Virus record (IMG/VR): IMGVR_UViG_3300046817_000634
Coordinates: 1 to 38,769 of that record
Source of the DNA: a virus
Length of the DNA stretch: 38,769 bases
Reading direction: 5' to 3' (one strand)
Both the position numbers and the translations under genes were made by a program. The notes beneath the pieces were generated by a model, which saw only the letters and a list, made by a program, of their open reading frames with translations, did no database searches and was not told the DNA's origin. Positions 1 to 38,699 of this stretch are shown in pieces. The first letter of the stretch is position 1, and the number at the start of each line of letters is the position of its first letter.

Positions 1-448
1 TGCTCAGTTTGGCTCCCGTGAACCAGCCGTAGATCGACCCATCGAAAAGGATGTAGGCCGAGATTTCGTCTTCGAGCGCCCTTTCGGGGTATTTGTGCAG
101 GTCGGCGTCGATTTCGTATTTCGCCAAATGCGTTGTTGCTTTGATGTAGTTGTCCTCCCACGTGTTCTGAACGTGGCCGCGACCGTAGTAACAATGCCCG
201 TAGGGTCCGCACGGCTTGCCGTATTTCTTGCCCTTCCCCTTGCCGATTTCCTCGACGGGCTGCATTTTGCGCCCGGTTTCGTGGAACGCGGTGGCGAGAC
301 AGTAGGCGAGGTATTTAAGCGGCCTGTCGCCGAAATCGCTCTCCCACACCTTGAGCAGCGCTTCCTGCCCCGTCACTTGCCCGATTGTCATTTCGCCACC
401 GAAAAGCAGCTTTCTGACGGTATCGAAGTAAAACTTGTGGTCGATCAT
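1..448 (-). CDS. Endolysin, GH19 chitinase-like (3' end cut by window edge)
   Basis: Predicted muralytic enzyme that would cleave peptidoglycan at lysis. Translated leftward from 448 it gives 149 codons and runs off the window. The N-terminal part carries HETGRKMQPVEEIG (from about residue 56) followed by YYGRGHVQNTWEDNY, the pattern of GH19 chitinase-type phage endolysins. Glu57 in HETG is the likely catalytic acid, and GWFTGAK near the cut also fits the family. An ATG at 454 overlaps the tail fibre stop as ATGA, but GGAG lies 8 nt before the ATG at 448, so I chose 448. It sits directly downstream of the tail fibre gene in the same leftward unit. The missing C-terminus would normally be some 30 residues. 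No holin or spanin is recognisable nearby. Confidence 0.8.
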   Translation of the reverse strand, partial: MIDHKFYFDTVRKLLFGGEMTIGQVTGQEALLKVWESDFGDRPLKYLAYCLATAFHETGRKMQPVEEIGKGKGKKYGKPCGPYGHCYYGRGHVQNTWEDNYIKATTHLAKYEIDADLHKYPERALEDEISAYILFDGSIYGWFTGAKLS

Positions 449-450
449 GT

Positions 451-3400
451 TCATATCTCCGCACTGGCAGTGAAAGTGTAAGCCCAACTCATTATACCAG
501 CACCGCCACCGGTCGCTTGTTGGACAAAGCTGCCGACTGTTGGAATTACAGCAATTACACTAGTCCAGCCGCCGCCTCCGCTTGGGGCTAAATTTATAGT
601 TGGTGGGCCTCCCCGCATTTGCGGTGAAAGTACGGTAGTACAATAAAATACTCCTCCAGTACCACTGCTATAACCACTGAGAGTGCCAGTACCAGTCTGA
701 TAGTACCGCTGACAATACTGAAGTTCTAGTGCGTATGGCCTCAACTCAAACGGTGTCGCTACAGAACCGGCTTCAAGCTGGATGCCTGTGATGCTCAACA
801 CAGCAGCATTGGTCTGAACGACGCCAACGTCGCCCGTGGCTGCTAGGTAATTTCCCGCAGCCCAAGCTCCCGCCGCCGCAGCAGAATATGTCGCTCCAGT
901 GCCGAGACTAAACGCCAGGGTCGCTGCGCCCGCGTTGCTCTGGCCCACCCACGTCCCTGCCGTGTCGCCGGGGATGGTTACGGTGTATTTGTTCCATGTG
1001 TTTGCCGTCGCCACGGTGTATGTGAACGGGCAGGAGCGACTGTTCGCATAATTCCTAAGCGCGCCAGAGTGCAACCCCGCCACAGAGCATGCAGCCCAAA
1101 AGGACAACGTAACTGATTTGGCCGCCGCAGTGCCAAAACCCATGTCAGCCCAATTAAAACCCTCTATGCCTTGGTAAAACGCAAAGTAGTCCCCAGCAGT
1201 AACAGCATACGGACTGGCGACGCTAAATGTTAAATAATTCGTGAATCCCAGACCCAGCAATGCGTTAGAGTTATTTACCACTTGTGCATTAAATCTTGAC
1301 GTTGCTGGGGCAGAACCAAAAGTCCAGCGATCACACAACATTCCGGTGACTGCAGCAAAGCCAGCAAAGTTATGGTACTGATCGATTATGAAATTACCGT
1401 TGAGCAGCCGATTGCGGAAATCCAACCCCGGCGCATTAATCGGCTGCGAGAACGTCGCCTGCCCTGTGGCGCGATTGATAGACAACGGCGTGTCTATCAG
1501 CGAACTTGCATCGCTGTATCTTTGCAACCCGAAATTGGACCCGGCATTGCTGCCGCTTTCGGCGGCCGAATCGCCAAACATCATCTGCCATCTGGCGCTG
1601 CCCGCCATGTAACCGACGACGCGAGACGTGCCGCCAGATGCGTTCTTACTCAAAGATACTGACGGATTGACGCCATTTATTGAGGCTGCTTCTGCCACCG
1701 CCAAATTGCCAGCAAGACTTAATTTAGCGGTGTTGTCAATACTAGCGTATTCAGTGGTGCCGTTGCCAAATGCAATCGGCTTGGAGCTTCCGCTGTTAAA
1801 TTCGATGTAGCCCATCTTGGTGCTGTCTACTTGACGGTAGATTTGCCAAGCGGCGGTACTCCAATCCGATCCTGCCGACTTGCGCTGGATTTCCGTGCGA
1901 ATGTTGTCGCCATTGGTGTCGGTCACATACACGTTTAGCGGGATGATCGTGGTGCCAATCGTGCTGCCGAGCGCGCCGCCATTGATTTGCGTCGTTCCAG
2001 AGAAAACCACGCCAGTGGTGCCTGCTGGCGCGCCAGATCCGTTGAGCGTCAAGCCGCCGAGGACGCCCGCATTGTTGTACTGGATTTGGCCGTTGGTTCC
2101 TCCAGCCGCAACCGCGCCAGCCGCAACCGGACCCCACGCCGAGCCATTCCAGCCCATCAGGTTGCCCGTCGCGGGCGCGGAGGCTGATAGTGGACGTCCC
2201 TGCAGCTGGACAACCGTGTTGGGAATGCTGGTGGTGCCAGAACCGGTAACGTCGCCGGTATGCGTAATGGTTTGGTTGGCGGTTAGATAGCTCTGCGACT
2301 TAACATAGGCCGTGGTCGCCAGCTTGGTGCTGTTGTCAGCCGCTGCCTGTGTCACACCGATGGTGCCGGTCGGCAGCGACGGCGTACCGGTGAACACCTG
2401 CGAGTTGACCAAGGCGTAGGGATTCAGCAGCGTGGTGAAGCCAGCGCCGGAGACGACGCCCGACGCCGAAAGGGTAGTGAAAGCTCCGGTGCTCGGCGTG
2501 GTTGCGCCAACCGTCGTGCCGTTGATCGCGCCGCCTGTGATCGCAACCGCGTTGGCGTTCTGGGTGGACATGGTGCCCAGACCCTTCGCCGTGATCGCGC
2601 CGTCAACATAGGCGGTGGTAGCCACTTTCGTTGAATTGTTGAGCGCAGTCTGCGTAATGGCGGTGGTTCCGGTCGGCAACGAGGGCGTCCCGGTAAACAC
2701 TTGCGAGTCCACTTTCGCATAAGGGTTCAGCAGCGTGGTGAAACCAGCGCCTGAAACAACACCCGACGCCGAAAGGGTGGTGAAAGAACCAGTGCTCCCT
2801 GAAATCGGTGTTCCAGTGATCGAGCCGCCCGTAATCGCAACCGCGTTGGCGTTCTGCGTCGCCATCGTACCGAGGCCGAGCGCCGTAACTTTGTTCGCAA
2901 CGAAAGCTGTGGTCGCCACTTTCGTTGAACTGTCGCCCGCTGTCGGCGTCGGGGCGATGGGTATCGTGGAAAATGTCGCTTGCCCGTCGCTGCGCCTAAT
3001 GCGCAACACTTCACTCGTAGTGCCAACGTCGCTGCCCTTCTGCAGCACAAAATCAGAACCAGCGTCGCCGCCCGGTTCCGCGCTGTTCTCCCCCAGCAAC
3101 ATGAACCAACGAGTAGACCCGTTGAGGGACGCCAAAATACCCGCCCCGCCGCCTAATCCGGTGCGGTTAAGTCCAAGAGTGGGCCAAGAACTCTTTAGGT
3201 CCAATTCGCCGTAGTTGAAAAACATCGAACTGGCGTCTGGACTGTTCACCGTGAGCGAACTGTTGATCGTCAGTTGGCCGGTCATAGTGTCGCCGGACTT
3301 CTGTACGAACGTGCTCACATCTGCCGCTGGGCCGGTTGCACCCGTGTCGCCCGTGTCGCCTTTATCGCCCTTGTCGCCCTTATCACCCTTGTCACCTTTA

Positions 3401-3717
3401 TCGCCTTTGTCCCCCTTTACGTCTATCTCCATCTGCGCCACGAGGCTGCTGTAATACAGCGTCGTAGGAACCCACTCGCCCGAAAGCCATTGGTTCAGCA
3501 GGATCAGGTCGTTGGTTTTCACGGGGAGGACAGCGGACCCAGCGTCCGGTGTGGCTGGATATACCGGCTTCGGGTTCCAGTTGCCGTCGTAAGGCGGCGG
3601 GGCGGGTTCCCAGTAGTCGGTGCCGCGCGTATCGATGCCGGGTGTGTGCGGCTCCGGGGCAGGAGGAAGCGTCCACGTCCCGCTTTTCGGTGATACGGGC
3701 TTCCATTCGTTAGTCAT
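451..3717 (-). CDS. Tail fibre protein with collagen-like segment and internal repeats
   Basis: Predicted 1088-residue receptor-binding fibre. The N-terminal 100 residues are Pro-rich and probably attach to the tail. Residues about 102-130 are Gly-X-Y triplets (GDKGDKGD...), which form a trimeric collagen-like rod in many phage fibres. Around residues 265-465 a unit of about 100 residues occurs twice (ATTAYV, GLGTM.TQNANAVAITGG, TLSASGVVSGAGFTTLLNPYA, VFTGTPSLPTG). A second motif pair, STRWFMLLG and SARWQMMFG, marks two further related domains. The C-terminus has LEAGSVATPFELRPYALELQ and CQRYYQ, seen in many phage fibre ends. The start at 3717 has GGGGA upstream and promoter P1 just before it; the longer frame from 3756 would begin inside the promoter. 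Confidence 0.85.
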   Translation of the reverse strand: MTNEWKPVSPKSGTWTLPPAPEPHTPGIDTRGTDYWEPAPPPYDGNWNPKPVYPATPDAGSAVLPVKTNDLILLNQWLSGEWVPTTLYYSSLVAQMEIDVKGDKGDKGDKGDKGDKGDKGDTGDTGATGPAADVSTFVQKSGDTMTGQLTINSSLTVNSPDASSMFFNYGELDLKSSWPTLGLNRTGLGGGAGILASLNGSTRWFMLLGENSAEPGGDAGSDFVLQKGSDVGTTSEVLRIRRSDGQATFSTIPIAPTPTAGDSSTKVATTAFVANKVTALGLGTMATQNANAVAITGGSITGTPISGSTGSFTTLSASGVVSGAGFTTLLNPYAKVDSQVFTGTPSLPTGTTAITQTALNNSTKVATTAYVDGAITAKGLGTMSTQNANAVAITGGAINGTTVGATTPSTGAFTTLSASGVVSGAGFTTLLNPYALVNSQVFTGTPSLPTGTIGVTQAAADNSTKLATTAYVKSQSYLTANQTITHTGDVTGSGTTSIPNTVVQLQGRPLSASAPATGNLMGWNGSAWGPVAAGAVAAGGTNGQIQYNNAGVLGGLTLNGSGAPAGTTGVVFSGTTQINGGALGSTIGTTIIPLNVYVTDTNGDNIRTEIQRKSAGSDWSTAAWQIYRQVDSTKMGYIEFNSGSSKPIAFGNGTTEYASIDNTAKLSLAGNLAVAEAASINGVNPSVSLSKNASGGTSRVVGYMAGSARWQMMFGDSAAESGSNAGSNFGLQRYSDASSLIDTPLSINRATGQATFSQPINAPGLDFRNRLLNGNFIIDQYHNFAGFAAVTGMLCDRWTFGSAPATSRFNAQVVNNSNALLGLGFTNYLTFSVASPYAVTAGDYFAFYQGIEGFNWADMGFGTAAAKSVTLSFWAACSVAGLHSGALRNYANSRSCPFTYTVATANTWNKYTVTIPGDTAGTWVGQSNAGAATLAFSLGTGATYSAAAAGAWAAGNYLAATGDVGVVQTNAAVLSITGIQLEAGSVATPFELRPYALELQYCQRYYQTGTGTLSGYSSGTGGVFYCTTVLSPQMRGGPPTINLAPSGGGGWTSVIAVIPTVGSFVQQATGGGAGIMSWAYTFTASAEI
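2326..2925 (-). repeat. Imperfect tandem duplication inside the tail fibre gene
   Basis: Two units of about 300 bp follow each other. For example, the segments starting at 2368 and 2671 are 303 bp apart and nearly identical over more than 100 bp. The offset is a whole number of codons, so the frame is kept. The protein units share VFTGTPSLPTGT and TLSASGVVSGAGFTTLLNPYA. Confidence 0.85.
3328..3417 (-). repeat. 9-bp-type tandem repeats coding for Gly-X-Y collagen-like triplets
   Basis: Short repeats of the type cctttatcgcccttgtcg on the plus strand encode Gly-Asp-Lys triplets on the minus strand, about nine or ten in a row. Such a tract can change length by slippage without losing frame. Confidence 0.85.
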
Positions 3718-3746
3718 GGCATTCCCCGGTGGTGCGGTGCGGGAAT

Positions 3747-3775
3747 ATTGTACCATACCGCCACGGGGCTGTCAA
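3747..3775 (-). promoter_or_regulatory. Promoter P1 for tail fibre/endolysin
   Basis: Read leftward: TTGACA at 3775-3770, 17 bp, TACAAT at 3752-3747, with TGG directly before the -10 (extended -10). Transcription would start about 20 nt before the fibre ATG at 3717. Confidence 0.8.
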
Positions 3776-3794
3776 CTCCCATCTGAATACAGTA

Positions 3795-3826
3795 ACGCCC
3801 CCGGTGGAGCGAATCACCGGGAGCGC
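3795..3826 (-). terminator. Strong hairpin after the 120-aa exported-protein gene
   Basis: The leftward transcript forms an 11-bp stem (CCCGGTG/CACCGGG extended by a G-U pair and CGC/GCG) with an 8-nt loop, between the stop at 3864 and promoter P1. It has no clear U tract, so it may end transcription poorly or protect the RNA 3' end. Confidence 0.45.
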
Positions 3827-3863
3827 CTCTTACTGACTTACGCGGATTGCGCCTATCAGCAGA

Positions 3864-4226
3864 TTAGTGACCGGCGAGGCCGCCGCCAATCGCGATCACG
3901 CTCGAACCACCGGACGTGGTGGAACCGGCGATGCCGTTGCCCGACGACGCAGCGAGAGTGCTGGACGTGGACGAAGCAGTGCCCGCTCCGCCGCCGCCCG
4001 CGATGGAGCCGCCGAAGAAGCCGCCGGTCGCAACGCCGCCGCCGCCAGCAACGCCGGTCGCGCCAGCGGTCGTTCCGCCGATCGCAGCCGCGTGGCCAAG
4101 CGAACCGGTGACGGTCGTCGAGTTGGAGTTGGTGATGACGGTTCCGCCACCAGCGCCGAAAGTGAAGGCCGAAGCCGGGGCAGCGAGAACCGCCAGAACG
4201 GCGGCGAGGGAAAGAATCTTTTTCAT
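3864..4226 (-). CDS. Exported Gly/Ala/Ser-rich small protein
   Basis: Unknown function. The 120-residue product begins MKKILSLAAVLAVLAAPASA, a clear Sec signal peptide with likely cleavage after ASA at residue 20. The mature part is almost wholly Gly, Ala, Ser and Thr with runs such as GGGGVATGGFFGGS and no Cys. Such low-complexity exported proteins can be matrix-like or surface proteins, but I recognise no family. The start at 4226 is fixed by AGAGGAAG 7 nt upstream; the longer frame to 4316 has no signal sequence and overlaps the upstream gene. It lies downstream of another exported protein (4292-5014) and upstream of the tail fibre promoter. Confidence 0.7.
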   Translation of the reverse strand: MKKILSLAAVLAVLAAPASAFTFGAGGGTVITNSNSTTVTGSLGHAAAIGGTTAGATGVAGGGGVATGGFFGGSIAGGGGAGTASSTSSTLAASSGNGIAGSTTSGGSSVIAIGGGLAGH

Positions 4227-4250
4227 GCGTATGCTTCCTCTGCAGAGAAT

Positions 4251-4270
4251 GCCGGGGATTCCGCCCCGGC
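4251..4270. other. Intergenic inverted repeat between two exported-protein genes
   Basis: GCCGGGG (4251-4257) and CCCCGGC (4264-4270) form a 7-bp stem with a 6-nt loop in the 65-bp gap between the genes ending at 4292 and starting at 4226. There is no U tract on either strand. Confidence 0.4.
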
Positions 4271-4291
4271 GCGGTTTACACCCTTGCGGGA

Positions 4292-5014
4292 TTAGTTTGC
4301 GGCGAGTGCGACGCACACGCCACGATCAGCCGAAAGGCGAGCGCCCCGGCTGTGGCAGTTGACGGGGCGATAGTGCCGCCCGCGACGATCTGTGTAGTCA
4401 CCAACCGACACCGAGGCGCTGACGGCGTAAGGTGTAGGCTGCGTAGCGAAATGCCCAACCCGGCATCGAATCCCACCGGCAACCATCGACGTCGCCAGTT
4501 CGTCGTCCAAGCAGAGAGTCTGCAAAGCGGCTTCGCGCTGCCCGAAGGCCCACAAAGTACGAGCGTTCAGCCTCTTGTTGCAGGGGCCGTCCTGCCAAGG
4601 AAAACCCAAAGCCCCACCACCGCCAACAGCTGCGCCGCCAAGTGAAACGGAGCCGTTGCAAGATTCGATGCCCGCCGCCGACATGCCGGGCGCGAAGACA
4701 GCAGGAGCTTGACCGGTGGTTGTGCTGTTGAATGTGTTGGTGTTGGCCGCGCCAGACTGATTGGCGTTGACAGAGCGCACAGCGGTGCTCTGGCTGGAAT
4801 TGATGCGGGAGTTGACGTTGGAGTTGGAGTTTGAACGGGACTGCGACGCCGAGGCTGCGTTGGCGGTGTTGCGGTTGTTCTGGACGGGGGCAGCGACGGC
4901 GTTTGAACTAGAGCGAGAGTTGGAAATTCCAGTTCCGATGCCCAGCGCGTTCTGCGCGAATGAGGGCGACGCGGCAACAATCAAAAGTGCGGTGAATAGG
5001 CCCGTGTACTTCAT
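4292..5014 (-). CDS. Exported protein with Asn/Ser-rich linker and six-Cys C-terminal domain
   Basis: 240 residues, unknown function. The N-terminus MKYTGLFTALLIVAASPSFA is a signal peptide, likely cut near residue 20. Residues about 25-105 are rich in Asn, Ser and Ala (SQSRSNSNSNVNSRINSSQS). From about residue 117 a compact domain follows with six Cys (ESCNGS, GPCNKR, TLCLDD, IRCRVG, VNCHSR, GVCVAL), which suggests up to three disulfides outside the cytoplasm. The arrangement CNGS...GPCNKR..ARTLWAFGQREAALQTLC resembles uncharacterised phage proteins I have a general memory of, but I cannot name the family. AAGGA lies 7 nt before the ATG. It probably shares promoter P2 with the gene at 5105-5506. 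Confidence 0.75.
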   Translation of the reverse strand: MKYTGLFTALLIVAASPSFAQNALGIGTGISNSRSSSNAVAAPVQNNRNTANAASASQSRSNSNSNVNSRINSSQSTAVRSVNANQSGAANTNTFNSTTTGQAPAVFAPGMSAAGIESCNGSVSLGGAAVGGGGALGFPWQDGPCNKRLNARTLWAFGQREAALQTLCLDDELATSMVAGGIRCRVGHFATQPTPYAVSASVSVGDYTDRRGRHYRPVNCHSRGARLSADRGVCVALAAN

Positions 5015-5104: not shown

Positions 5105-5506
5105 CTAGGCGGCTACCTTCTCGTCCGCCTTTGCGGCGCGGACGGGAAGCGGGGCGACCGTCAGCGCCACTTCGGCGCCTTCAAGGTCGGTGAGTTTGCC
5201 GTTCTTGCGCACGAGCGTGGCAAGACGGTTGCGGAGGGTCATCCGGGTGCGGCCTTCGGCACCACGCGCCTTTTCGGCGATCGCCTTTTCGTAGGGCGCG
5301 ATGTGCTCGTCCGCGATGCCGTTGGCGCGGCACAGGGCGAACAGCCGAGTGATATCGGACTTGTTGTCGACGATCAGTTGCTCAGCAATGAACTTGCTCA
5401 GTTCATCGGCAGCGCCCTTGTACTTGCCAGCGTATTTCGCGGGGACAATGGACTTGCTCTTCTTGGGGGCTTCATCGTTGACGGGCTGGGTTTCAACTTC
5501 GGTCAT
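5105..5506 (-). CDS. Unknown phage protein, paralogue 1 of a three-member family
   Basis: 133 residues, no known function. From about residue 20 it shares a core with the genes at 10110-10871 and 16277-16777: a KY..KYK or RYK segment, a helix, an A/N-N/D-G-[IV] turn, then GRTRMTLRNRLATL in place of GRLRM in the paralogues. It lacks their acidic linker and the GxPxxCGD motif, having KYKGAADELSKF instead. The N-terminus is polar and the C-terminus is Ala/Lys-rich. GGAG is 7 nt before the ATG, and promoter P2 lies immediately upstream, so it is the first gene of its own unit. A role in DNA binding is possible from its basic, helical character but not shown. Confidence 0.7.
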   Translation of the reverse strand: MTEVETQPVNDEAPKKSKSIVPAKYAGKYKGAADELSKFIAEQLIVDNKSDITRLFALCRANGIADEHIAPYEKAIAEKARGAEGRTRMTLRNRLATLVRKNGKLTDLEGAEVALTVAPLPVRAAKADEKVAA

Positions 5507-5597: not shown

Positions 5598-8138
5598 CTA
5601 GAACTTGTGCGAGCGGGACCCTATTCTGCGGGTCTTATCGGCCAGTGTGGTGGTGTTTTCGCCGGTTTCGCCCTCGACGAAATCGCGGTATATGTCTGTA
5701 AGCTCTGCGTTGGTGCTGGCGGTGAACTGCTCACACGCTGACTGCCACCGCAGGGTGGAACGCTGCAGACGAATGCCGCCGTCCACCACCCTTTCGATTA
5801 GCCCCATCGTCTCGAACTCGGCCATTACCTTGTCAGGCGACACCTTCATACCCGTCTTTTCGGTTTCAAACTTCACGCGCTCGTGCCATTGGTCGCCGTT
5901 GAATGGCATTTCCCACGCCAAGTCGTTAGCGGCGATCCAGCCCGATTCTACTATCTTTTGAGCTATGCGCCTTGTCCACGACATGTTGGCTTTTGCCACT
6001 TCGGAGTCGCTGCTAGACGAGTGCTCTATGCTTTCGATCTCGTGCCGGTCGGTTTTAATGTCCATGAAGTATCGGACCAGATGGCGGCAGAAATCAAAGT
6101 TGTCCAGCGCCGCCTCGAAGTCATCGAAAAACGTCTTTAGTCCCAGCGTCCAATGTCGAAATTGGGGCTGCGTCATCTTTAGGAAGTGCTCATCGTAGGC
6201 GCGCGTGTAGAAAATGGCGCGGTCGGTTACGTCGCGTTCCACCACGCCAGTGTTGGTCTTATTCGAGGCAAACATGAGCCGCGCGTAGATGCTGTAACCC
6301 CGCGATTCTTGAAACTTCTCGGCCCCCTGCACCCTCACGGAACGTACCAAATCCTTGATAATTCCAGCCGCGTCGGCGTCGCGCGTTAGGTCTACTTCGT
6401 CCATGAAGACAAACATCTTGTCTTTGAACGAACCTACGATGAAATCGGTGCCCAGCGTCTTCGCTACCACGATGCCCGCCAGATCGCCCATAATCTTCGG
6501 CATCAGCGTTTTGCCAAAGAACGACTTGCCGACTCCCTGACCACCGACACAGACCCACCCGATTTGCTGCTTCGTGCCGGGGTTTTGCCACGTCCACGCC
6601 AGCCATTTCTTGATCCAGTCGATTTGCTTTTCGTTGTCGCATGTCAGATAGCCCAGAAGGCGGTCAAGCAGCGTCACCGCGCGTTCCATCATGGCGGGGT
6701 CTATGGTGTCGATGGGCAGGACGGTCCAGCCGCGCCACGTGTTGAATACGGTGTGCGCTCTCTCGCTCTCGTCTTCGTCGGACAGGATGCGGCCAGATAT
6801 TCCGCGTCGATACACAAAACCCGGTTGCCAATCAGGCAGCAAATCAGTGGTGCCCACTAGTATTCGCAGCTTGGACCCCTCGAAAATATCGAACGCCCTC
6901 ATTGATTTCCCACCAATCATTACCCTATCGCTGGCGTGGCGGGTTTTCAGCGCCCCCGGTTCGAACTCATAGTTCAGGCCGTCCAGCATAGATTTGCGGT
7001 CGATGTACATTGTGCTGGCTTTGCAGTACAGGTAATCCTCGGCGAATTGGGCGAGAATCGACGTGTCCGCGCCGGGTCGCAGCACCGTCTTGATAGCTTC
7101 CATCGCCTGTGCTTCCAGCATTTTCAACATCGCGCCCCAGCCGGGAACGCGGGCGTTGCTTGGGTTCAGGTCTATCTTTCGGCGCGCGTCGGCAAAGGTG
7201 CGGAGGCGCATAGGCTTTTCATCGTCGCCACAATAGTTGCAAATGAAGCTGATAAGGCTGGCCGCTATTTCGTCGCTATTGATGGGACAGATAACACCGG
7301 CCTTTAGCCCGGTTGTTTCTTCCAGCGCTTGGGACTCATTTACGATGCGGGTCAGCCATCCGCCTAGTATTCGCGCCGTGTCTTGGCGGCTTCCCTTCGT
7401 CCATTCACCCCGCATGAAATAAGCGATGACACCGAAAGCGATGCCCCTGACAACGAGCTTATACTCGGCCTCGCGGGGCGTCGTCACGATGATGGACGTC
7501 ACGTTGTCCGCGATGCTGTTGTCGTGGACGTACCAGACAGCCGGATCGTACTCGATGCCTATGATCTTGGCGTCGTAGACGGAACCGGGCATAACGGTTT
7601 GCGCGGCGGAGGCCACGGCGTTTTTCTTGTCGCTGTTGGTGGGGGAGGAACGCAGCTGGACGTGGAATCTCTCGCCAGATATCTTGAATGCTTTGGGTTC
7701 GAAACGTTGCAGCTGGTCGAAAGTGTCGCTCTCTTCCTTGGGTAACGATACCATTACGTGGGAGGGACAGCCCGTTGATCGTCTCCCGAACGCTAGTCTG
7801 GTGTCCACCCCAACGTGGGTGAGGGCGGCGACGACGACCTTGTTGAACTCCGGGTCGTTGGCGTCAATGTCGATATCGAGCCAGCCCGAATTGGTCATGA
7901 ACCCTAGGTTGCAGGGCTGTCGCTCCGGGTTGTCGATCCACGCGGTCATGTCCAGATCGCCGTGTTCACCCCTCGTCCATTCCGCGTCGATCGGCTCCTT
8001 ACTCTGCGGTTTGAGCCAGACCGCTTTCACCTTGATGAATTTCTCGTTGATTTTCGCCGTTATTGCCTTTTGTCGGCGCACAAGATCGTCGTCTGGCGGT
8101 GTCAAATCTGCACCCCCCTTTATCGACTTGAATGTCAT
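5598..8138 (-). CDS. Primase-polymerase with SF3 (D5-like) helicase domain
   Basis: Replication protein of 846 residues, expected to prime, copy and unwind the phage DNA. The N-terminal archaeo-eukaryotic primase-type domain shows LDIDID (Asp88, Asp90, Asp92) as the metal-binding motif and GCPSHVMVS (His127) as the SxH motif. A W..GSRQDTARILGGWL segment (about 246-262) resembles the PriCT linker. The C-terminal SF3 helicase has Walker A GGQGVGKS (Lys538), Walker B FVFMDEVD (Asp580, Glu581) and sensor ARLMFASNK (Asn626). I chose ATG 8138 because the longer frame (to 8249) would start inside promoter P3; the ribosome site there is weak (GACGGAC). The same fusion type is the only polymerase known in the Z-genome phage S-2L, matching the Z-cluster at 36-38 kb. 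Confidence 0.88.
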   Translation of the reverse strand: MTFKSIKGGADLTPPDDDLVRRQKAITAKINEKFIKVKAVWLKPQSKEPIDAEWTRGEHGDLDMTAWIDNPERQPCNLGFMTNSGWLDIDIDANDPEFNKVVVAALTHVGVDTRLAFGRRSTGCPSHVMVSLPKEESDTFDQLQRFEPKAFKISGERFHVQLRSSPTNSDKKNAVASAAQTVMPGSVYDAKIIGIEYDPAVWYVHDNSIADNVTSIIVTTPREAEYKLVVRGIAFGVIAYFMRGEWTKGSRQDTARILGGWLTRIVNESQALEETTGLKAGVICPINSDEIAASLISFICNYCGDDEKPMRLRTFADARRKIDLNPSNARVPGWGAMLKMLEAQAMEAIKTVLRPGADTSILAQFAEDYLYCKASTMYIDRKSMLDGLNYEFEPGALKTRHASDRVMIGGKSMRAFDIFEGSKLRILVGTTDLLPDWQPGFVYRRGISGRILSDEDESERAHTVFNTWRGWTVLPIDTIDPAMMERAVTLLDRLLGYLTCDNEKQIDWIKKWLAWTWQNPGTKQQIGWVCVGGQGVGKSFFGKTLMPKIMGDLAGIVVAKTLGTDFIVGSFKDKMFVFMDEVDLTRDADAAGIIKDLVRSVRVQGAEKFQESRGYSIYARLMFASNKTNTGVVERDVTDRAIFYTRAYDEHFLKMTQPQFRHWTLGLKTFFDDFEAALDNFDFCRHLVRYFMDIKTDRHEIESIEHSSSSDSEVAKANMSWTRRIAQKIVESGWIAANDLAWEMPFNGDQWHERVKFETEKTGMKVSPDKVMAEFETMGLIERVVDGGIRLQRSTLRWQSACEQFTASTNAELTDIYRDFVEGETGENTTTLADKTRRIGSRSHKF

Positions 8139-10109: not shown

Positions 10110-10871
10110 TCACTCGGCAGCGGCAGGTTGCGCCTCGGCGACGACTTCGGGCTGCTTTTCGCGCTTGAACCGCTGGTTCGCCATCCATTCGCCGCTCATT
10201 TGGTGAACTTCATCGTTCTGCAAAATGAGCTTGCCATCGGCCTCGAACACGACGCGGGACAGAATGTTGCGCCCCGTCATGCGAAGGCGTCCCTGCCAAC
10301 CGTGCGTGGTGCGGTTGTACTTGGCGAGATTGACGCCGTTCAACTCGCACACGTGCTCGAAGATGGCGAGGCTCTGCGCCTCGGTGGACTTGCAATAGTC
10401 CTTGAGGAAGAAGGCGAGTTCATCGCCGCAGTTCGTGGGGTGACCGCCTTCCTTGTAGCGGGCGCGATACACCGGCTTCACCACCGAGCCGGTCTTTTCC
10501 TCTTCGGCGTCCTCTTCGGCCTTCTCTTCGGCGTCGAGTTCCTCCAATTCCTCGTCTTCCATTTCGGCGCGAGCGGCTTGCCACTCCTTCTTGGCCTGTT
10601 CGTAGGCGTAATCGAGATGTTGCGACGAGATTTTGAAATCGGGGTGCTTGGTGGTCACGACGTACGCGCCGTCCGTGAACTCCATCGAAAATGAGCGGTA
10701 GTTCAGCGTCATGTCCTTCAAGGCCAGCATGTTCTTGAGCAGCTGGGGCGGGTTGTCGCCGATCAGGAACCGGTTGCGCTCCGGCCAATAGGCTTTGTAA
10801 GCGTCGTCGGTTTCGCTGAGAATGATGCCGTTCTTCTTGGCTTTTTCCTGCGTGGCGTTGTGGATGGTCAT
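10110..10871 (-). CDS. Unknown phage protein, paralogue 2 of a three-member family (253 aa)
   Basis: 253 residues. The first 120 contain ITETDD-like polar helices and KHPDFKISSQHLDYAYEQAKKEW; then a long acidic linker (residues about 120-145, many Glu and Asp). From about 150 comes the family core: KPVYRARYKEGGHPTNCGDELAFFL, then CELNGVNLAKYNRTTHGWQG and GRLRMTGRNILSRVVFE. The motif GxPxxCGD and W-Q-G-R-L-R-M are shared with 16277-16777. The C-terminus is Gln/Ala-rich. The start at 10871 has AGAGGAC upstream and follows promoter P7; the in-frame extension to 11234 overlaps other genes and has no family signal. Function unknown; the basic GRLRM segment could touch nucleic acid. Confidence 0.75.
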   Translation of the reverse strand: MTIHNATQEKAKKNGIILSETDDAYKAYWPERNRFLIGDNPPQLLKNMLALKDMTLNYRSFSMEFTDGAYVVTTKHPDFKISSQHLDYAYEQAKKEWQAARAEMEDEELEELDAEEKAEEDAEEEKTGSVVKPVYRARYKEGGHPTNCGDELAFFLKDYCKSTEAQSLAIFEHVCELNGVNLAKYNRTTHGWQGRLRMTGRNILSRVVFEADGKLILQNDEVHQMSGEWMANQRFKREKQPEVVAEAQPAAAE

Positions 10872-16276: not shown

Positions 16277-16777
16277 TCAGTTGCTCATGTGCTTGTCGCA
16301 GAACCTGACCGGGGCTTCCAGTTCGGTCCCGTCGGGCAGTATCAGCGCGAACTGGTTAGCTACCTTCGTCCTGAGCGCCATCCCGCCGCTCATCCGCAAC
16401 CGGCCCTGCCAGCCCGGTGTCGTGCGGTTCCAGTGCGCGTGTTTCACCCCGTTCGCGTCGAGGATTGCTTCGAGTTCGGCTACCCGGAGCTTGCCGTTCT
16501 GGTCGAGGGTGTATTCTTTCAGTGTTTGTTGCAGCCAGTCGCCGCAGCCGCGCGGGTCGCCGCGTTCCGCGTATCGGGCCTTGTACTTGGCTTTTACAAC
16601 GCCGCTGCCCTTCTTTTCTTCTTCCTCTTCGGTTACCTCGATCGTATCGTTTTCGTAGTTGTTGAATGCGGACTGCAGTAGCGTGAAGCCGATCTCGGGG
16701 GCGTCCATGTTGTCCTCGTGGCTGTCGTAGGTGCCGGTCTTGGTGGTCTTGTTGCTGGTCTTGCGGGCGTTTTTCAT
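16277..16777 (-). CDS. Unknown phage protein, paralogue 3 of a three-member family (166 aa)
   Basis: 166 residues. A Lys/Thr-rich N-terminus (KNARKTSNKTTKTGTYDSHE) leads to an acidic linker (EVTEEEEEKKG, about residue 47), then the family core: GVVKAKYKARYAERGDPRGC, GDWLQQTLKEY, ILDANGVKHAHWNRTTPGWQ, GRLRMSGGMALR. It is closest to 10110-10871, sharing GxPxxCGD-like GDPRGCGD, NRTT.GWQGRLRM and the acidic linker. AGGA is 7-8 nt before the ATG. It follows the Ala-rich gene (16836-17192) and ends beside promoter P11. Function unknown; three copies in one small genome suggest a dosage need or three partner-specific variants. Confidence 0.75.
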   Translation of the reverse strand: MKNARKTSNKTTKTGTYDSHEDNMDAPEIGFTLLQSAFNNYENDTIEVTEEEEEKKGSGVVKAKYKARYAERGDPRGCGDWLQQTLKEYTLDQNGKLRVAELEAILDANGVKHAHWNRTTPGWQGRLRMSGGMALRTKVANQFALILPDGTELEAPVRFCDKHMSN

Positions 16778-32654: not shown

Positions 32655-34628
32655 ATGGCTGAGGACCCGTGGGCGGAAGCCGCCGCGAAAGACAAGGCCA
32701 ACGTTGACGCTCACGAAGCCGTGATGAGCGAACGTGAGTCCGATGGGTCGTTGCGTGGCGATCCGTGGTATCAGCGTTTGATGCACCTTACCGGCGTCGG
32801 CGCGCGGAGCGCGCTTAGTTCAGCGACCCTTGGCGCTTCCGATACGCTGTACAACTTGGGAAAATCGTACGTTACTGGTCGCCCATACAAGGACCTGCAG
32901 ACCGAGGCGCAGCAATTCTACGAGCATGACCCCGTTACCACCGGCACCACGTCGCTTGCTGGAACCGCCTTGTCTGGCGGATTGATATCCAAGGGCGTCG
33001 GCGTGGCAGGGAAAGCGATCGGACCCGCCATCGAGGAAGCCGCCGCTAAGTATCTACCTGAATGGGTAGCGAAACCGGCTGCGGCGGTTGGTCGCGGCGC
33101 GGCGAAACTCGACCTTCCCAACGCCGGTCCGGTCATGGCCAACCAAGCTATTACCGGCGCTGGGGTGGCGGCGGGCGAGGATGTTGGCCACGGTCACGCC
33201 CCCAATTTGCAGATGATGGGGCTGTCGGCGCTGGCGGGCGCTGGAATGGGCGGTCTTACATCAGGCGCTGGCTTCTTGCTTTCGCCGTCGCGGCGTCTCC
33301 GCGTCGCTGGTTCCGAGTTCAACCCGGAAGACGTGGTTAAAGCGCGCACCATGCTGGACCCCGCCAATTCCGGCGGCATTCAGCTGAACATTCCCGAGGC
33401 GATGGCCGCGTCGGATGTTGGTGGGCGCGACGCCGTTCTTCGCGGCGTTTACAACACCGATATTCGTATGCCCAAAGGATCGGTGGAGGCGGCGCGGCAA
33501 TCCAGCGCGCGAGAAAGCGATATCAAAAACACCACCAACGTTATGTACGAGCGGTTGCGCGGCGGCGGCGGTCCGTTGAACCCAGAGTTTGAACCGGGAG
33601 CGCCTGTACAACAAGCTGCTGGTGACGTTGTGAAAAACGCGCGCACCGAGTTAGGTAAGCTTACCTCCCCCGATTTCGCTGCTACGGCTAATGAGAAAAT
33701 ACCCCGCTGGGGAGGGTGGCGCGGTCCGGAATATGCTGAAGCCCGCACCGCGTTGGGTAAGGACCCCTATGCAATGGAGGGGCTAAAAGGCGTGGCGGAA
33801 GATTCCCCGCTGTTCCAAGGTCAAATCGCTGCCAAGATGGGCGGGTTGGCCCAAGAAGCTGAGAAAGACCCCGCGATGGCAGCGTCTGGCTCCCATGCCA
33901 AGCTGTACCGAGCGAAAGATTACTTGCAAGACCACATTAATCAGCACTCCCCCACTTACGCGGCTGCAGACGCCCAATACACGCGTAACATTAAGCAAGC
34001 GGCAGAGCCTATTGAACAAGGACCGCCTGGTATTATCGCTGGCACTAAAAACGCCGACGAGCAAGCTAGAGCGCTGTTCGGCGCTAGGACGCCGCAGGAG
34101 GGCGAAGTTGCCCAGCGCGCTTTCGGCGTCCCCATTCCTGCGCAGGGGGCGTCTATCGGCCCCAACCCCAGCATTGGCGCGTTACCGCCCGGCGCTATTC
34201 GTGGGTTGCTAGCGCATACTTATGGCGTTGCAAAGAACATAGCGCCGGGGGAAGAGGGTGCCGAGGCGGCGATGAAGCGCGTCGCCAACATTTTCCCGTC
34301 CAAGGAAGGCGAAAATGTGGCCAGAGGCTTACTTTCGCCGCAGGACATGTCCGATCTGTCGCAGCATTTGAAGATCGCCAGTGCCATCCGCGACGCCAGA
34401 GAGCCGACCGCCAGCAGCGTTCACAGCGGCGATACGCTTAAGTCCAAGTTCCACAATTGGTTGTCCAACCTCGCCCCCGACGTTCGCGTCAAGATGTTGA
34501 ACGACCCGAAAACCTTGGAGTTGTTTGGGAAGCAGGGGATGGGCCAGCGTCTTATCAACGCTGGCTCCACCAGTGCGGTTAATTCACTGCTCAATCTGTA
34601 CCAGTTTGGGTCTAAAGACCGCCCTTAA
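32655..34628 (+). CDS. Virion-internal protein, last late gene
   Basis: 657 residues. The N-terminal part has GVGARSALSSATLGASDTLY and glycine/alanine-rich helices (TSLAGTALSGGLISKGVGVA, ITGAGVAAGEDVGHG, LSALAGAGMGGLTSGAGFLL) that could interact with membranes during DNA entry. The middle is helical and charged. No catalytic motif is seen. It follows the previous ejection gene by 3 nt. Its end overlaps the 3' end of the opposite helicase gene by 17 bp (34612-34628), with only a 5-bp GGTCT/AGACC dyad at the meeting point. Probably an ejection or structural protein; function inferred from context. Confidence 0.65.
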   Translation: MAEDPWAEAAAKDKANVDAHEAVMSERESDGSLRGDPWYQRLMHLTGVGARSALSSATLGASDTLYNLGKSYVTGRPYKDLQTEAQQFYEHDPVTTGTTSLAGTALSGGLISKGVGVAGKAIGPAIEEAAAKYLPEWVAKPAAAVGRGAAKLDLPNAGPVMANQAITGAGVAAGEDVGHGHAPNLQMMGLSALAGAGMGGLTSGAGFLLSPSRRLRVAGSEFNPEDVVKARTMLDPANSGGIQLNIPEAMAASDVGGRDAVLRGVYNTDIRMPKGSVEAARQSSARESDIKNTTNVMYERLRGGGGPLNPEFEPGAPVQQAAGDVVKNARTELGKLTSPDFAATANEKIPRWGGWRGPEYAEARTALGKDPYAMEGLKGVAEDSPLFQGQIAAKMGGLAQEAEKDPAMAASGSHAKLYRAKDYLQDHINQHSPTYAAADAQYTRNIKQAAEPIEQGPPGIIAGTKNADEQARALFGARTPQEGEVAQRAFGVPIPAQGASIGPNPSIGALPPGAIRGLLAHTYGVAKNIAPGEEGAEAAMKRVANIFPSKEGENVARGLLSPQDMSDLSQHLKIASAIRDAREPTASSVHSGDTLKSKFHNWLSNLAPDVRVKMLNDPKTLELFGKQGMGQRLINAGSTSAVNSLLNLYQFGSKDRP

Positions 34629-36042
34629 CGAGGCGCATGATCGCATTGTAGATGTTTTCTTTACGCTGCAACGCCTCGATCATAGCCATATCGACGGGCG
34701 TCCCAACGGAGTCCACATAACCGCAGTAGTCCGATGTTTGCCCGCGACGATGAATGCGATCCTCGATTTGGGACCGGTCATCAAGACTGTACGTATTTTC
34801 ATAGAAGTACATGGTCCAACAACGATCGTTGTCATCGCCGTGGCCAAGCAGGGTATGGCCATATTTTGAAGCCACTGTTTGTAAGAGTATAGCTCGACAC
34901 CCCGGATCATTGTTGAACCTGCTCTTCTGGCGCTCAATTTCGTCGGGGGTCATTCCCCCCTTGATAATGGCGGGGTTCAGGTTCTGCAGCGCCAAGCTCA
35001 GTTCCTTCCCGACGTGGATATGCTTGTAGGGGATGGCTATCTTCCCTGTGAGTTCATTTTCGATGAAGTCGAGCAACGAAAGGAGGCGCGGGTTCTTTCC
35101 CGGCTCGACCAGTTGGTGGACTTTCTGGTTTTCGTCGATGATGAACCCGCACTGTATCTGCGCCAGTTTGATGTATTTCGTGATGGCGGCGTCGACCGAT
35201 ACGGTCATGCCGTCGCCGATGAACGCCACGAACTCGTCCCACATTGATGTAAAGTGGGCCTGCATTTCCTTGGTGAGCCGGTATTCGCGCGCGGTGTATC
35301 GCCGCCCGATGTTGATGCCCCAATCCTTCTTCTTGGCTTGGAAAATCCACGGCGACACCAGCCCTGCCAACTGCTCTTCGTTTTGTGCGCCCGTCACTTT
35401 CTTGTTGCGAAACCCCCCGGTAACGCAGTACCGGCCTTTGAACGAGTAGTAGTTGAAACCGTCGATGGCACCCATCGCGCGCAGTTGCGACCAGAAATCG
35501 TGGGGGCCTTGCTTCATCCACTTCCCCGAAAGGTCAACCCGCCAGACAAACTCCTTGGCTAGTTCGATGGCGGCTTTGGTCTGGGCGCTGTCGTGGGTGC
35601 TGATCTGGATGCTCTCGTCGAAGTAGATCGAGGCGCGGCGCAGCAGCTTGAACCGGCGAATGTACTCGCGTGTGGCTTCGCTGCGGATCGCCTCATAGTT
35701 GACGATCAGCATTGGTATATTGCCGCCACTCGCCGCTGTCTTTCGCAGCCACCATTCGTTGATGCTGTCCGCGCCGCTCTCAAACACGAACGAGTTGATT
35801 GGGAACCCCTGCTTTTTGATTTCCTCGACCCAACCCGCCTTGAACGAGTTGGGGGCGACGATCACCACGCAATCAATTGCGTCCTCCGCGTACATTTCCA
35901 GGGCCTCACCACACGCCACGGACGTTTTGCCGAGGCCCTGTTCCATGATGTATCCAAACCCGGTCTGGCCGCGCTTCCGCGCATCCTTTCCGTGCTTCCA
36001 CGCCTCTATCTGTACCGGATCGGGTTTGAATGTTTTGCTCAT
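34612..36042 (-). CDS. SNF2-type DEAD/DEAH-like helicase
   Basis: 476 residues. Walker A MEQGLGKTSVA (Lys39, Thr40), motif Ia VIVAPNSFKAGW, motif II YFDESIQI (Asp142, Glu143, in place of DEAH) and motif VI DRIHRRGQ (Arg432, Arg433, Gln435) define a Swi2/Snf2-type ATPase. A motif V-like region is ILLQTVASKYGHTLLGHGDD. It would translocate on DNA; SNF2-type phage proteins aid replication or recombination. The ATG at 36042 overlaps the stop of the HD phosphohydrolase gene (ATGA), so it belongs to the Z-genome operon. Possibly adapted to the stiffer 2-aminoadenine DNA, which is inference. It meets the late operon tail to tail at 34628. Confidence 0.85.
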   Translation of the reverse strand: MSKTFKPDPVQIEAWKHGKDARKRGQTGFGYIMEQGLGKTSVACGEALEMYAEDAIDCVVIVAPNSFKAGWVEEIKKQGFPINSFVFESGADSINEWWLRKTAASGGNIPMLIVNYEAIRSEATREYIRRFKLLRRASIYFDESIQISTHDSAQTKAAIELAKEFVWRVDLSGKWMKQGPHDFWSQLRAMGAIDGFNYYSFKGRYCVTGGFRNKKVTGAQNEEQLAGLVSPWIFQAKKKDWGINIGRRYTAREYRLTKEMQAHFTSMWDEFVAFIGDGMTVSVDAAITKYIKLAQIQCGFIIDENQKVHQLVEPGKNPRLLSLLDFIENELTGKIAIPYKHIHVGKELSLALQNLNPAIIKGGMTPDEIERQKSRFNNDPGCRAILLQTVASKYGHTLLGHGDDNDRCWTMYFYENTYSLDDRSQIEDRIHRRGQTSDYCGYVDSVGTPVDMAMIEALQRKENIYNAIMRLVKGGL

Positions 36043-36578
36043 AGCGGGTCCTGATCTCTACCGTGTCCATCTACGTGTAGCATAATGTCGTCGCGGTCAG
36101 CGTCGCACAGTCCACATTTTATCATGACGGCGGTCAGGTCGTCAAGTAGCTTTCGGTACAGGGATTGCACCGAGTGGTTGCCCATCATCATTTCATGACC
36201 GAGGAAGATGACCGACTCCATTATGTCGGCTATCTTCACCGCGTCTGTCACAACGGGCAGGTTGAGCAGCGAGTACACCGTCTTTTCGATGATGCGGTCG
36301 CCGTAATGGTGGTACACGTAACCCATGTCGTACCCCGGTTTCGCCGGGGTGGGAATGTCGCCTGTGAACGCCTCCCATTGGTCGTGGAGCAGCGCGTACC
36401 GCGATATCAAGAACAGGGTCTCGAAGTCTGCTTTGCTGACGCCGAGGTAGTCCACGGCGACGCGCGGGGCCATCAATGCGACACGGAATGAGTGCTCCGC
36501 GACGCTCTGCTTCTGGACTGTCCGAACAATCCCCCAGCGGGGGACGTCGGAGAGTCTGGCTTCAAACTCTCCGAGCAT
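36039..36578 (-). CDS. datZ: HD-domain dATP phosphohydrolase, DatZ type
   Basis: 179 residues of the YfbR-like HD family. Motifs in order: RWGIVRTVQKQSVAEHS (Arg14, Trp15, His29), YALLHDQWEAFTGDIPTPAK (His65, Asp66, Glu69, Asp74) and VKIADIMES (Asp118). In Z-genome phages DatZ removes the phosphates from dATP and so keeps A out of the DNA, and it sits next to purZ, as here. Distinguishing DatZ from a general 5'-deoxynucleotidase needs phylogeny; the neighbourhood makes DatZ most likely. GGGGAA is about 8 nt before the ATG. It begins 3 nt after the MazZ stop and overlaps the helicase start by 4 nt. Confidence 0.8.
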   Translation of the reverse strand: MLGEFEARLSDVPRWGIVRTVQKQSVAEHSFRVALMAPRVAVDYLGVSKADFETLFLISRYALLHDQWEAFTGDIPTPAKPGYDMGYVYHHYGDRIIEKTVYSLLNLPVVTDAVKIADIMESVIFLGHEMMMGNHSVQSLYRKLLDDLTAVMIKCGLCDADRDDIMLHVDGHGRDQDPL

Positions 36579-36580
36579 TG

Positions 36581-36988
36581 TTACTTCCCCTTGTCGATGG
36601 ATATGGCGGCGACGATCATGGCGAAGTTGGCGACGTCCGCAGCCTCCAACAGTATCTCGACCATGTTGCCCTCAATGATGGCCTCTTTCAACTCTTGAAC
36701 CTCCTTGTTGAGCAGCGTCAGCGCCTCAATAAGGCCGATATCCTCCCAGCGCCCTTTGTGGGCGTTGCGCTTCATTTTGTACTTCATCGCGTCGACGAAA
36801 CGCCGAAAGTCGTCGGTATAATCGGGCGGCTCTTTCATCGCCGTCGTCGATTTGTACAGTTCGTTCATTGCCTCGTCGCGCGTTGGCGTCGGGTTGATCC
36901 GATCCTCCGACGCGCGGAATTTTAGGGCCTGATCGTACAGTTCAGCGGGGGACAGCCCCTTGGTGAAATCGGTGTGGGTGTTATTCAT
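36581..36988 (-). CDS. mazZ: MazG-type nucleotide pyrophosphohydrolase, MazZ type
   Basis: 135 residues. The MazG motif ExxE, 15 residues, ExxD is complete: Glu96 and Glu99 in NKEVQELKEA, Glu115 and Asp118 in LLEAADVANF. HKGRWEDIGLIEALTLL precedes it, typical of the fold. In Z phages MazZ hydrolyses dGTP to dGMP and pyrophosphate, giving PurZ its substrate. The start at 36988 has AGGAGG 5 nt upstream and overlaps the purZ stop by 8 nt (ATGAATAA); the longer frame to 37075 lacks a ribosome site. The N-terminal 60 residues are a polar helix region not common to short MazG proteins. Alternative: a general MazG with no Z link. Confidence 0.78.
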   Translation of the reverse strand: MNNTHTDFTKGLSPAELYDQALKFRASEDRINPTPTRDEAMNELYKSTTAMKEPPDYTDDFRRFVDAMKYKMKRNAHKGRWEDIGLIEALTLLNKEVQELKEAIIEGNMVEILLEAADVANFAMIVAAISIDKGK

Positions 36989-38027
36989 TAGTTCCTCCTG
37001 CCGGATCATCGCTAATGTCGGTGGTGTACGGTCCGTTTCCGTACAGCATTTCGGGTCGATATTTGAGGACTTCATAAGTGAACTCCTGCATTTCGTAGGC
37101 GAACTTGTACTTCGCCTCGTCCGTTTTGAGATAGTCCATGAAGTTGATGCAGACGGTGGACGGCATGTTGGTGAGCAGCGCGTCGGCGTATTGCATCTTG
37201 GAGAAGGTGAAGACGCGGCGGATGCGCTGCGTCACCGTTGTCAGTTCAGGTTTCAGGTTGAGTTCTTCCCACGACGTCTCTTCCTGATCCTGATAGTAGT
37301 CGCCGCTGGAATGCCCATCGACGTTGCCCACGCGGATCGGGAAGGTTCGGATGGTCATTCCTACTGACGTCACGCGCTGGGCTGGTATGCGGGCGTCGGC
37401 TAGCCCCTGCATGACGGTGCATTCCCGGCTCGTCACCTTGGGGTAGAAGTGCGAGTTCAGCCCCAGCGAAAAGCCTTGACTGACTTCGACACCCACCCGC
37501 ACATCTGCCCAATTCGGGGTGTCCTGAATGAGGCGGATGTTGCCAGCCCACGGTCCCTTGTACGCGCCGACGACGGCATCGGGTTCCCGCAGGATTTTGC
37601 GGGCGATGGCGATGCCGACGCCCTGCCGCGTCCCGGCGACCGCGCCGACTGAACCCCGCTTTTCGGCGTCCTTGTCTTCGGGTCGTATCAGCGCTGCCCA
37701 TCGCGACAGGAAGACGAGGCCCGCGTATTCGCTAGCCTCCTTGTTGAGTATATCCGGGTCAATCGCCGCCCCCGCCGAAAGGAAGATCGGGACCGAGCGC
37801 TGGTGAAACATCTGCGTCGCCACGGCGAGGGTCGGCAGCTGTTTCAGGACCACCTTTTCGTCGTTCGGTCCGTAGAAGGTGTGGCCGCTGTTCGGCCCAG
37901 CGTTCGCCACCACAACGTCGAGGTTCATGCCGCCCTTGCGGGCAGCGTAAGCGGCAAACGCCCCCTTGCCGGTGCTGCCGTATTGCCCGTCCACGATGAC
38001 GTGGACGCCTCTGCGGTGGAACATCAT
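36981..38027 (-). CDS. purZ: PurZ, phage adenylosuccinate synthetase-like (dSMP/dZMP pathway)
   Basis: 348 residues, the expected PurZ length. PurZ joins aspartate to dGMP; host enzymes then form dZMP. The P-loop region reads VDGQYGSTGKGAF (residues 12-24): the catalytic Asp of PurA (GDEGKGK) is Ser18, the known mark of PurZ. NAGPNSGHTF (about 42-51) matches the IMP/GMP loop, GTRQGVGIA the next substrate loop, VEVSQGFSLGLNSHFYPKVT the core of PurA EGAQG...TYPYVTS, and VTQRIRRVFTFS the C-terminal Asp-binding part. ATG 38027 has GGAGGA upstream and overlaps the DUF6378 stop; the longer frame to 38291 is out of place. A diverged PurA is the alternative and is unlikely. Confidence 0.9.
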   Translation of the reverse strand: MMFHRRGVHVIVDGQYGSTGKGAFAAYAARKGGMNLDVVVANAGPNSGHTFYGPNDEKVVLKQLPTLAVATQMFHQRSVPIFLSAGAAIDPDILNKEASEYAGLVFLSRWAALIRPEDKDAEKRGSVGAVAGTRQGVGIAIARKILREPDAVVGAYKGPWAGNIRLIQDTPNWADVRVGVEVSQGFSLGLNSHFYPKVTSRECTVMQGLADARIPAQRVTSVGMTIRTFPIRVGNVDGHSSGDYYQDQEETSWEELNLKPELTTVTQRIRRVFTFSKMQYADALLTNMPSTVCINFMDYLKTDEAKYKFAYEMQEFTYEVLKYRPEMLYGNGPYTTDISDDPAGGTNE

Positions 38028-38278
38028 TTGCAAATCCTCCGGCCAAGACCGGCATAACCGCCAAGATCGTCCCAATGCTCGCCGTGGTCGGCCATCCCCG
38101 AAAGGATGCGGCTGATTTTCAGCGCCGCCATGTCGAGCGCCTCCTTCTGCACGTCCGGCAGCATCGTCCATCCCGACGCGGAGTGCATCACGTTCTTCAA
38201 TTCTTGACTGACCCGCGCATTTTCGGCGAAGTTGCCGTGGGTCTGACCGCGCGCCTCTAACAGTTCCTTCGTATTCAT
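38024..38278 (-). CDS. DUF6378-like protein
   Basis: 84 residues from ATG 38278. MNTKELLEARGQTHGNFAEN then ARVSQELKNVMHSASGW, QKEALDMAALKISRILSGMA and DHGEHWDDLGGYAGLG match the DUF6378 pattern found in many phages. It is probably an all-helical protein; no enzyme activity is known. GGAG lies about 8 nt before ATG 38278; an ATG at 38338 gives a longer form with a weak site and overlaps the nuclease gene. Its stop overlaps purZ as ATGA, so both are translated together. A link to nucleotide metabolism is possible from this coupling but is inference. Confidence 0.78.
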   Translation of the reverse strand: MNTKELLEARGQTHGNFAENARVSQELKNVMHSASGWTMLPDVQKEALDMAALKISRILSGMADHGEHWDDLGGYAGLGRRICK

Positions 38279-38318
38279 TCTCGCTCTCCACTCCGCGAAC
38301 CCACGCTCTGTGAGTTCT

Positions 38319-38699
38319 TCAAGTATGTCCTTGCCCATGGTATGCTTTCAGCAACTTGGTTATTTCCTTCCAATGCCCGCTTACGCGGGCGTTCTTATTG
38401 TGCGCCTCTGGACCCAACGGGTTAAGGTACACATTATGGTTGTCGGGGTTGCAGCCCATAAGAATGACTACCGCCCCGCCTTCGGCGTTTTGTATCCTGT
38501 TTAGCTCCACCAGTTGGCGCGGACGGGGCCGATAGATGCCGCGCGATATTTTGGCCTCGATGAAGAAGGTTGGCCCCCCGTGCGGGATCAGAATCATGTC
38601 GAATATGCCGACAGCAAACTGATCCTCGAACCGGCGTCCATAGCCGAGTTCTGATTGCACCTGCTTCACCATGTTGGTCTTGAACTCTGCCTCATTCAT
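38319..38699 (-). CDS. PD-(D/E)XK-like nuclease (VRR-NUC or resolvase type)
   Basis: 126 residues. VGIFDMILIPHGGPTFFIEA then KISRGIYRPRPRQLVELNRI carries the restriction-nuclease-fold signature: Asp34 followed by Glu-Ala-Lys (EAK, about residues 48-50), a basic helix with PRPRQ, and a strand VVILMG. The fold fits a small VRR-NUC-like or Holliday-junction-type nuclease. It is the first complete gene of the Z-genome operon and could degrade unmodified host DNA or resolve replication junctions. The ATG at 38699 has no strong ribosome site; it overlaps an upstream reading frame as ATGA, so coupling is possible. The frame is open upstream to the window end, so the true start could lie outside. Confidence 0.7.
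   Translation of the reverse strand: MNEAEFKTNMVKQVQSELGYGRRFEDQFAVGIFDMILIPHGGPTFFIEAKISRGIYRPRPRQLVELNRIQNAEGGAVVILMGCNPDNHNVYLNPLGPEAHNKNARVSGHWKEITKLLKAYHGQGHT

Follow-up and report, generated by a model that had tools for sequence, protein, structure and literature searches.

A predicted purZ-mazZ-datZ cluster for 2-aminoadenine DNA in a Wolominvirus-like phage contig

Does a phage known from an incomplete genome record build its DNA with 2-aminoadenine (Z) in place of adenine? The question is raised by three adjacent genes, purZ, mazZ and datZ, on the minus strand of a linear IMG/VR virus record of 38,769 bp (IMGVR_UViG_3300046817_000634), the whole of which we call the window. This gene set is almost certainly a Z-cluster, a reading based on gene identity, phylogenetic place, catalytic residues, coupling, conserved position and the existence of a relative that lacks purZ. 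The triad is a new example of a known Z system rather than a new system. We regard as highly probable the whole account, in which a Wolominvirus-like tailed phage carries a Z-cluster of the phiVC8 kind, has its family A polymerase (PolA) in a gap of the record and would have 2-aminoadenine in its virion DNA.

Identity of the PurZ, MazZ and DatZ proteins

An earlier note, made from the letters of the window alone, had described the three genes as one coupled operon. This arrangement was borne out: purZ and mazZ overlap by 8 nt and a gap of 2 nt separates mazZ from datZ, with a purine-rich, Shine-Dalgarno-like stretch ahead of each start. The motifs that the note had picked out are also in place (VDGQYGSTGKG in PurZ; E96, E99, E115 and D118 in the 135-aa MazG-like protein). 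The coupled run is longer than the triad described there, taking in a nuclease gene and a DUF6378 gene upstream and the gene for an SNF2-type helicase downstream (Table 1).

Profile searches place the first protein with PurZ. Its PHROG match is 2-amino adenylosuccinate synthetase (E 1.6e-53), and in NCBIfam it scores 218 bits with the PurZ model NF038379, against 111 with archaeal-type and 69 with bacterial PurA. Among PDB sequences phiVC8 PurZ comes first (6fm1, E 5e-46), with S-2L PurZ (7odx) and archaeal PurA lower. A maximum-likelihood tree built from 42 proteins puts window PurZ beside the PurZ of Ochrobactrum phage vB_OspP_OH (OH; NC_070933, Wolominvirus) and of other Wolominvirus-like phages, within a 29-member PurZ clade (100/98). 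Archaeal and E. coli PurA fall outside this clade, and PurZ0, represented by a single long-branched row, is basal to it. A grouping with bacterial PurA, which the earlier note had named as the outcome that would speak against its reading, was therefore not seen. At the catalytic Asp13 position of PurA, where the archaeal and E. coli proteins have Asp, the window protein has Ser18 (DGQYGSTGKG); in a survey of NCBI viruses, the phage members of the PurZ group, 147 sequences in all, had Ser here without exception (PMC12884076). Residues H49 and V233 are conserved, as is the TTVT loop, and the position of the S-2L adenine contact Q308 is Asp.

The MazG-like protein is predicted to be MazZ-2, the phiVC8 kind as defined in PMC8342488, because of its phage matches, its PHROG family, its four conserved acidic metal ligands (E96, E99, E115, D118) and its MazG fold. 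Phage matches in tblastn were restricted to OH, the phiVC8-like phages (E 3e-4) and three weak others. The best PHROG family was phrog_9860 (E 1.6e-7), of which phiVC8 p26, encoded between purZ and datZ, is a full-length member. A structural model built with 15 relatives (predicted local distance difference test score, pLDDT, 79) matches the MazG-type structure 2p06 (Z-score 11.7 over 79 residues), with unrelated helical rows lower. The first ATG of the open reading frame is at 37075; the likely start is at 36988, which has AGGAGG ahead of it. The protein bears an N-terminal extension of about 50 aa. Counted from the ExxD motif, the positions that in S-2L MazZ are the guanine contacts I56 and D60 read N and I. 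Assignment to MazZ-1 was ruled out by these residues and the matches, and with both contacts lost the guanine specificity of the window protein is putative. Of the phages that the earlier note had cited as models, phiVC8 thus fits the window in its MazZ type, whereas S-2L, with MazZ-1, and Acinetobacter phage SH-Ab 15497, whose MazZ is a DUF5664-DUF550 fusion (PMC12884076), do not.

The third protein has S-2L DatZ as its best PDB match (6zpa, E 1.2e-9) and dATP triphosphohydrolase as its PHROG match (E 7.4e-20). Its R14, W15 and I17 correspond to the adenine-selecting R19, W20 and I22 of S-2L DatZ, giving an identical R-W-x-I motif, and the HD metal ligands H29, H65, D66 and D118 are kept. In S-2L DatZ the isoleucine of this motif shuts out the 2-amino group (PMC8065100). 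The window protein joins Wolominvirus-like DatZ with 98/96 support in a tree that has one YfbR row and long branches. As predictions from profile, position and residues, the MazZ-2 and DatZ assignments hold.

Taken together, the predicted triad enzymes very likely serve dZTP synthesis and dATP removal. MazZ-2 would convert dGTP to dGMP, from which PurZ, driven by ATP or dATP, would form succino-dZMP with aspartate. Host PurB and nucleotide kinases would carry succino-dZMP on to dZTP while DatZ would clear dATP. The polymerase that would then copy T with Z is most likely one of family A, of the type found in this phage group and encoded in the contig-break gap, and the replacement of adenine by 2-aminoadenine in virion DNA would allow escape from host restriction. 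The S-2L triad expressed in E. coli does put Z into E. coli DNA (PMC8342488); for the phage of the window we infer Z in its DNA from homology.

Table 1. Features of the window that bear on the Z-cluster and the contig ends
Feature	Positions	Strand	Remarks
purZ, 2-amino-(deoxy)adenylosuccinate synthetase (predicted), 348 aa	36981..38027	-	P-loop DGQYGSTGKG, Ser18 at PurA Asp13 position
mazZ, MazZ-2 (phiVC8) type MazG-like NTP pyrophosphohydrolase (predicted), 135 aa	36581..36988	-	ExxE...ExxD intact
datZ, HD-domain dATP triphosphohydrolase (predicted), 179 aa	36039..36578	-	R14 W15 I17, H29, H65-D66, E69, D118 conserved
DUF6378 protein	38024..38338	-	Coupled to purZ by ATGA overlap
Small nuclease/endonuclease-like protein	38319..38699	-	OH gp30 counterpart
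SNF2-type DNA helicase, downstream end of cassette	34612..36042	-	OH gp36, 49%; 4-nt overlap with datZ
Primase-polymerase/DUF5906 helicase protein	5598..8138	-	OH gp22 PrimPol, 43%
OH gp23 counterpart	5105..5506	-	Followed by secreted proteins, tail fibre and lysin to contig end
GH19-type endolysin gene, cut by left contig end	2..454	-	
C-terminal hydrophobic tail (NVVAFLAVLGVALMPRRWTRVRR*), gene cut by right contig end	38700..38769	-	

The DUF6378 gene is also present in a purZ-less relative and is therefore not Z-specific. The idea that it encodes an extra nucleotide hydrolase was dropped on the same ground and on that of a poor model (pLDDT 64). Its homologues are named 'phosphofructokinase' in PHROG and RefSeq, a name to which the Pfam result gives no support. 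A CATCAT pattern search was uninformative.

Relatives of the window and their polymerase

A search of the phage collection found no close DNA relative of the window; its nearest kin is OH, which has the same order of nuclease, DUF6378, purZ, mazZ, datZ and helicase. IMG/VR relatives, too, share the gene order. Most structural genes are common to the two. Identities are 55% for PurZ, 57% over 79 aa for MazZ, 41% for DatZ and 43% for PrimPol, and 70%, 57% and 34% for the major capsid protein (MCP), TerL and portal. The two differ in that, from gp23 to the nuclease, OH encodes Gam, gp26, PolA and gp29, and in that a further small gene separates its mazZ from its datZ; in the window, a tail fibre gene and the cut lysin gene come after gp23, and MazZ has the N-terminal extension.

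Scans of IMG/VR yielded further relatives (16 by PurZ, eight by DatZ and 80 by MCP), among which the Z cassette is modular. Records at or near full length with purZ, PolA and datZ are G008, G012, G028, G029, G030 and OH itself. In six others of 41-44 kb (G005, G007, G010, G011, G014, G016), purZ and PolA are present and YfbR/DatZ was not found in the record; since IMG/VR classes the relatives' records as linear, genes at their ends could be missing. Several of this datZ-less set (in part loci L013, L016, L158 and L157) have an open reading frame of 54-66 aa at the expected datZ site. One 44-kb relative, G015, has PrimPol, Gam, PolA, nuclease, DUF6378 and helicase and no purZ (L154:16491-18469). 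Its DUF6378 gene (to 16889) is followed directly by the helicase gene (from 17096), and the Z-cassette site is therefore empty. On the PolA tree, datZ presence requires at least three changes.

The PolA of this group (e.g. L018:13523-15349) forms a clade of its own (100/100), which includes the purZ-less G015. Among the rows used, it is sister to the phiVC8-like DpoZ (100/99 in one tree and 95/88 in another). Its motif B reads MGMLTMM or similar, without the helix-O insertion. At the position of phiVC8 Phe459, which is also Phe in the PermaG polymerase, the group has Thr or Ser and G015 has Asn; Phe459 is the sole characteristic change common to both known DpoZ types (PMC8599892). Tentatively, and with more doubt than confidence, we suggest that Wolominvirus-like Z phages use a polymerase outside these two types, either the group PolA or, if the gap of the window holds no PolA, PrimPol alone.

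That gap lies where it matters. Between PrimPol-gp23 and nuclease-DUF6378-purZ, OH and all relatives whose records span this interval have Gam, gp26 and PolA, and it is here that the contig of the window breaks. The record is incomplete, since its left end cuts the GH19-type endolysin gene, and the two contig ends do not overlap each other. What follows gp23 in the window is a pair of secreted proteins, then a tail fibre and the lysin; in the relatives gp23 leads to Gam, gp26 and PolA either directly or, in three cases, after an insert of about 3 kb whose genes are unlike those of the window. Because PolA still follows in these three, an insert after gp23 does not imply its loss. Near-complete relatives are mostly 41.2-44.5 kb long, which leaves the window about 2.5-6 kb shorter. 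From these three points, the contents of the interval, the insert-bearing relatives and the lengths, a family A polymerase is expected in the missing few kilobases. Scans with the lysin, the nuclease and gp23 for a second contig of the same phage that bridges the gap found no near-identical locus. A 5.5-kb contig (L043) has an MCP identical to that of the window.

Some further features of this end of the record stand apart from the polymerase question. Within positions 2-5014, the lysin and both secreted proteins share 74-77% identity with their counterparts in G020, a 60-kb phage record that is otherwise different, a likeness that points to exchange between phages sharing one host; a chimeric contig is less likely. 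A tandem repeat of about 300 bp (2358-2655 and 2661-2949; 75% identical) lies inside the tail fibre gene. A domain of about 100 aa occurs in three paralogous copies (5108-5464, 10155-10493 and 16283-16609) shared with OH gp04, gp15 and gp23.

Alternative readings and characterised Z phages

Several results weigh against the full account of a Z-DNA phage. No family A polymerase was found anywhere in the 38.8-kb record, in which the PrimPol/DUF5906 protein is the only polymerase-like replication gene found. By calling the Z-genome gene set complete, the earlier note therefore overstates what the record shows, and so does its step to a phage that replaces A by Z: the genes seen are purZ, mazZ and datZ, and both contig ends fall at the site where relatives have PolA. 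Nor would PolA by itself mark a Z phage, because G015 has the group PolA and no purZ. PurZ falls short of the curated cut-off of NF038379 (218 versus 300 bits), though this is its best PurA-type model; that cut-off serves automatic naming, and the placement of PurZ rests on the tree and the residues. With I56 and D60 lost, substrate specificity is less well supported for MazZ-2 than for MazZ-1.

The missing polymerase could mean that the triad works in a phage that has none of family A, with PrimPol or a host polymerase copying Z, DatZ alone excluding A as in S-2L, and the tail fibre/lysin block having replaced Gam-PolA. The genes that follow gp23, together with a gene upstream of the nuclease that is not OH gp29, fit such a replacement, and so do the presence of PrimPol and the retention of DatZ, on which S-2L relies (PMC8065100). 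We consider this unlikely, however, given that PolA occupies the interval in every relative spanning gp23 to the nuclease, insert-bearing ones included, and that the window is short and has genes cut at its contig ends. Nor did tblastn with the window PrimPol hit S-2L; an S-2L-like PrimPol was rejected for this reason and for want of a match in PDB sequences. That the cassette merely tunes nucleotide pools, leaving some A in the DNA, strikes us as slightly more improbable still: the S-2L triad gave only partial replacement in E. coli (PMC8342488) and relatives without datZ exist, but the phage of the window has datZ, and replacement is reported as complete in the characterised phages with the triad (PMC8342488, PMC12884076). 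The remotest of these readings, for which we see very little room, is that of ordinary purA, mazG and yfbR relatives. It follows the description of OH, which makes no mention of 2-aminoadenine and takes the genes for salvage enzymes: adenylosuccinate synthase, pyrophosphatase and 5'-nucleotidase (PMC7139368). Against it stand the Ser in place of the catalytic Asp, the grouping with PurZ, MazZ-2 and DatZ as the nearest named families, and the adjacency of purZ, mazZ and datZ even in distant phages.

The window can be set beside phages of known Z systems. The phiVC8-like phages (Enhodamvirus, and also Alteromonas phage ZP6) have purZ, MazZ-2 and datZ in the order of the window, but differ in capsid and replication genes, and their PurZ is about 35% identical. 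The helix-O insertion and Phe459 of phiVC8 DpoZ are both lacking in Wolominvirus-like PolA. S-2L shares with the window the triad, a PrimPol and the DatZ RW-I motif, and differs in having MazZ-1 and a PurZ of 33% identity. In SH-Ab 15497, as in the window, purZ, a MazG-type gene and datZ are adjacent; its PolA lies upstream.

PurZ-clade genes in bacterial assemblies and the reach of the Z-cluster

Proteins of the PurZ clade also turned up in bacterial assemblies. Two alphaproteobacterial metagenome assemblies encode one (L171:3965-5008 and L172:3992-5029) at a chromosomal housekeeping locus with the order FGGY kinase, DUF805, cmk, purZ, Ham1, rpsA, sppA. The protein has Ser at the Asp13 position, and neither assembly yielded another PF00709 protein. 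YfbR was not found in either, nor was a clear PurB: matches to the PurB model score 93-95 bits, below its cut-off of 326, and the proteins concerned look, from our reading of their sequences (GSSIMPGKVNPTQ), like fumarase C. Because these are metagenome assemblies of 1.6-1.8 Mb, such absences are weak evidence. A contig assigned to Verrucomicrobia has a PurZ-clade gene with a YfbR-like gene close behind (L176:3974-5899), and one assigned to Gottesmanbacteria has PolA near its PurZ gene (L174:942-4999); in both cases, phage DNA may have been binned with bacterial contigs.

These findings extend the Z-cluster to a phage group that is mostly known from metagenomes and that centres on the cultured phage vB_OspP_OH. 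Its members, built on nearly the same backbone, differ in whether they have purZ and in whether they have datZ, and this provides natural comparisons. Because of these comparisons, the need for datZ in full replacement and the selection of Z by the group PolA become testable.

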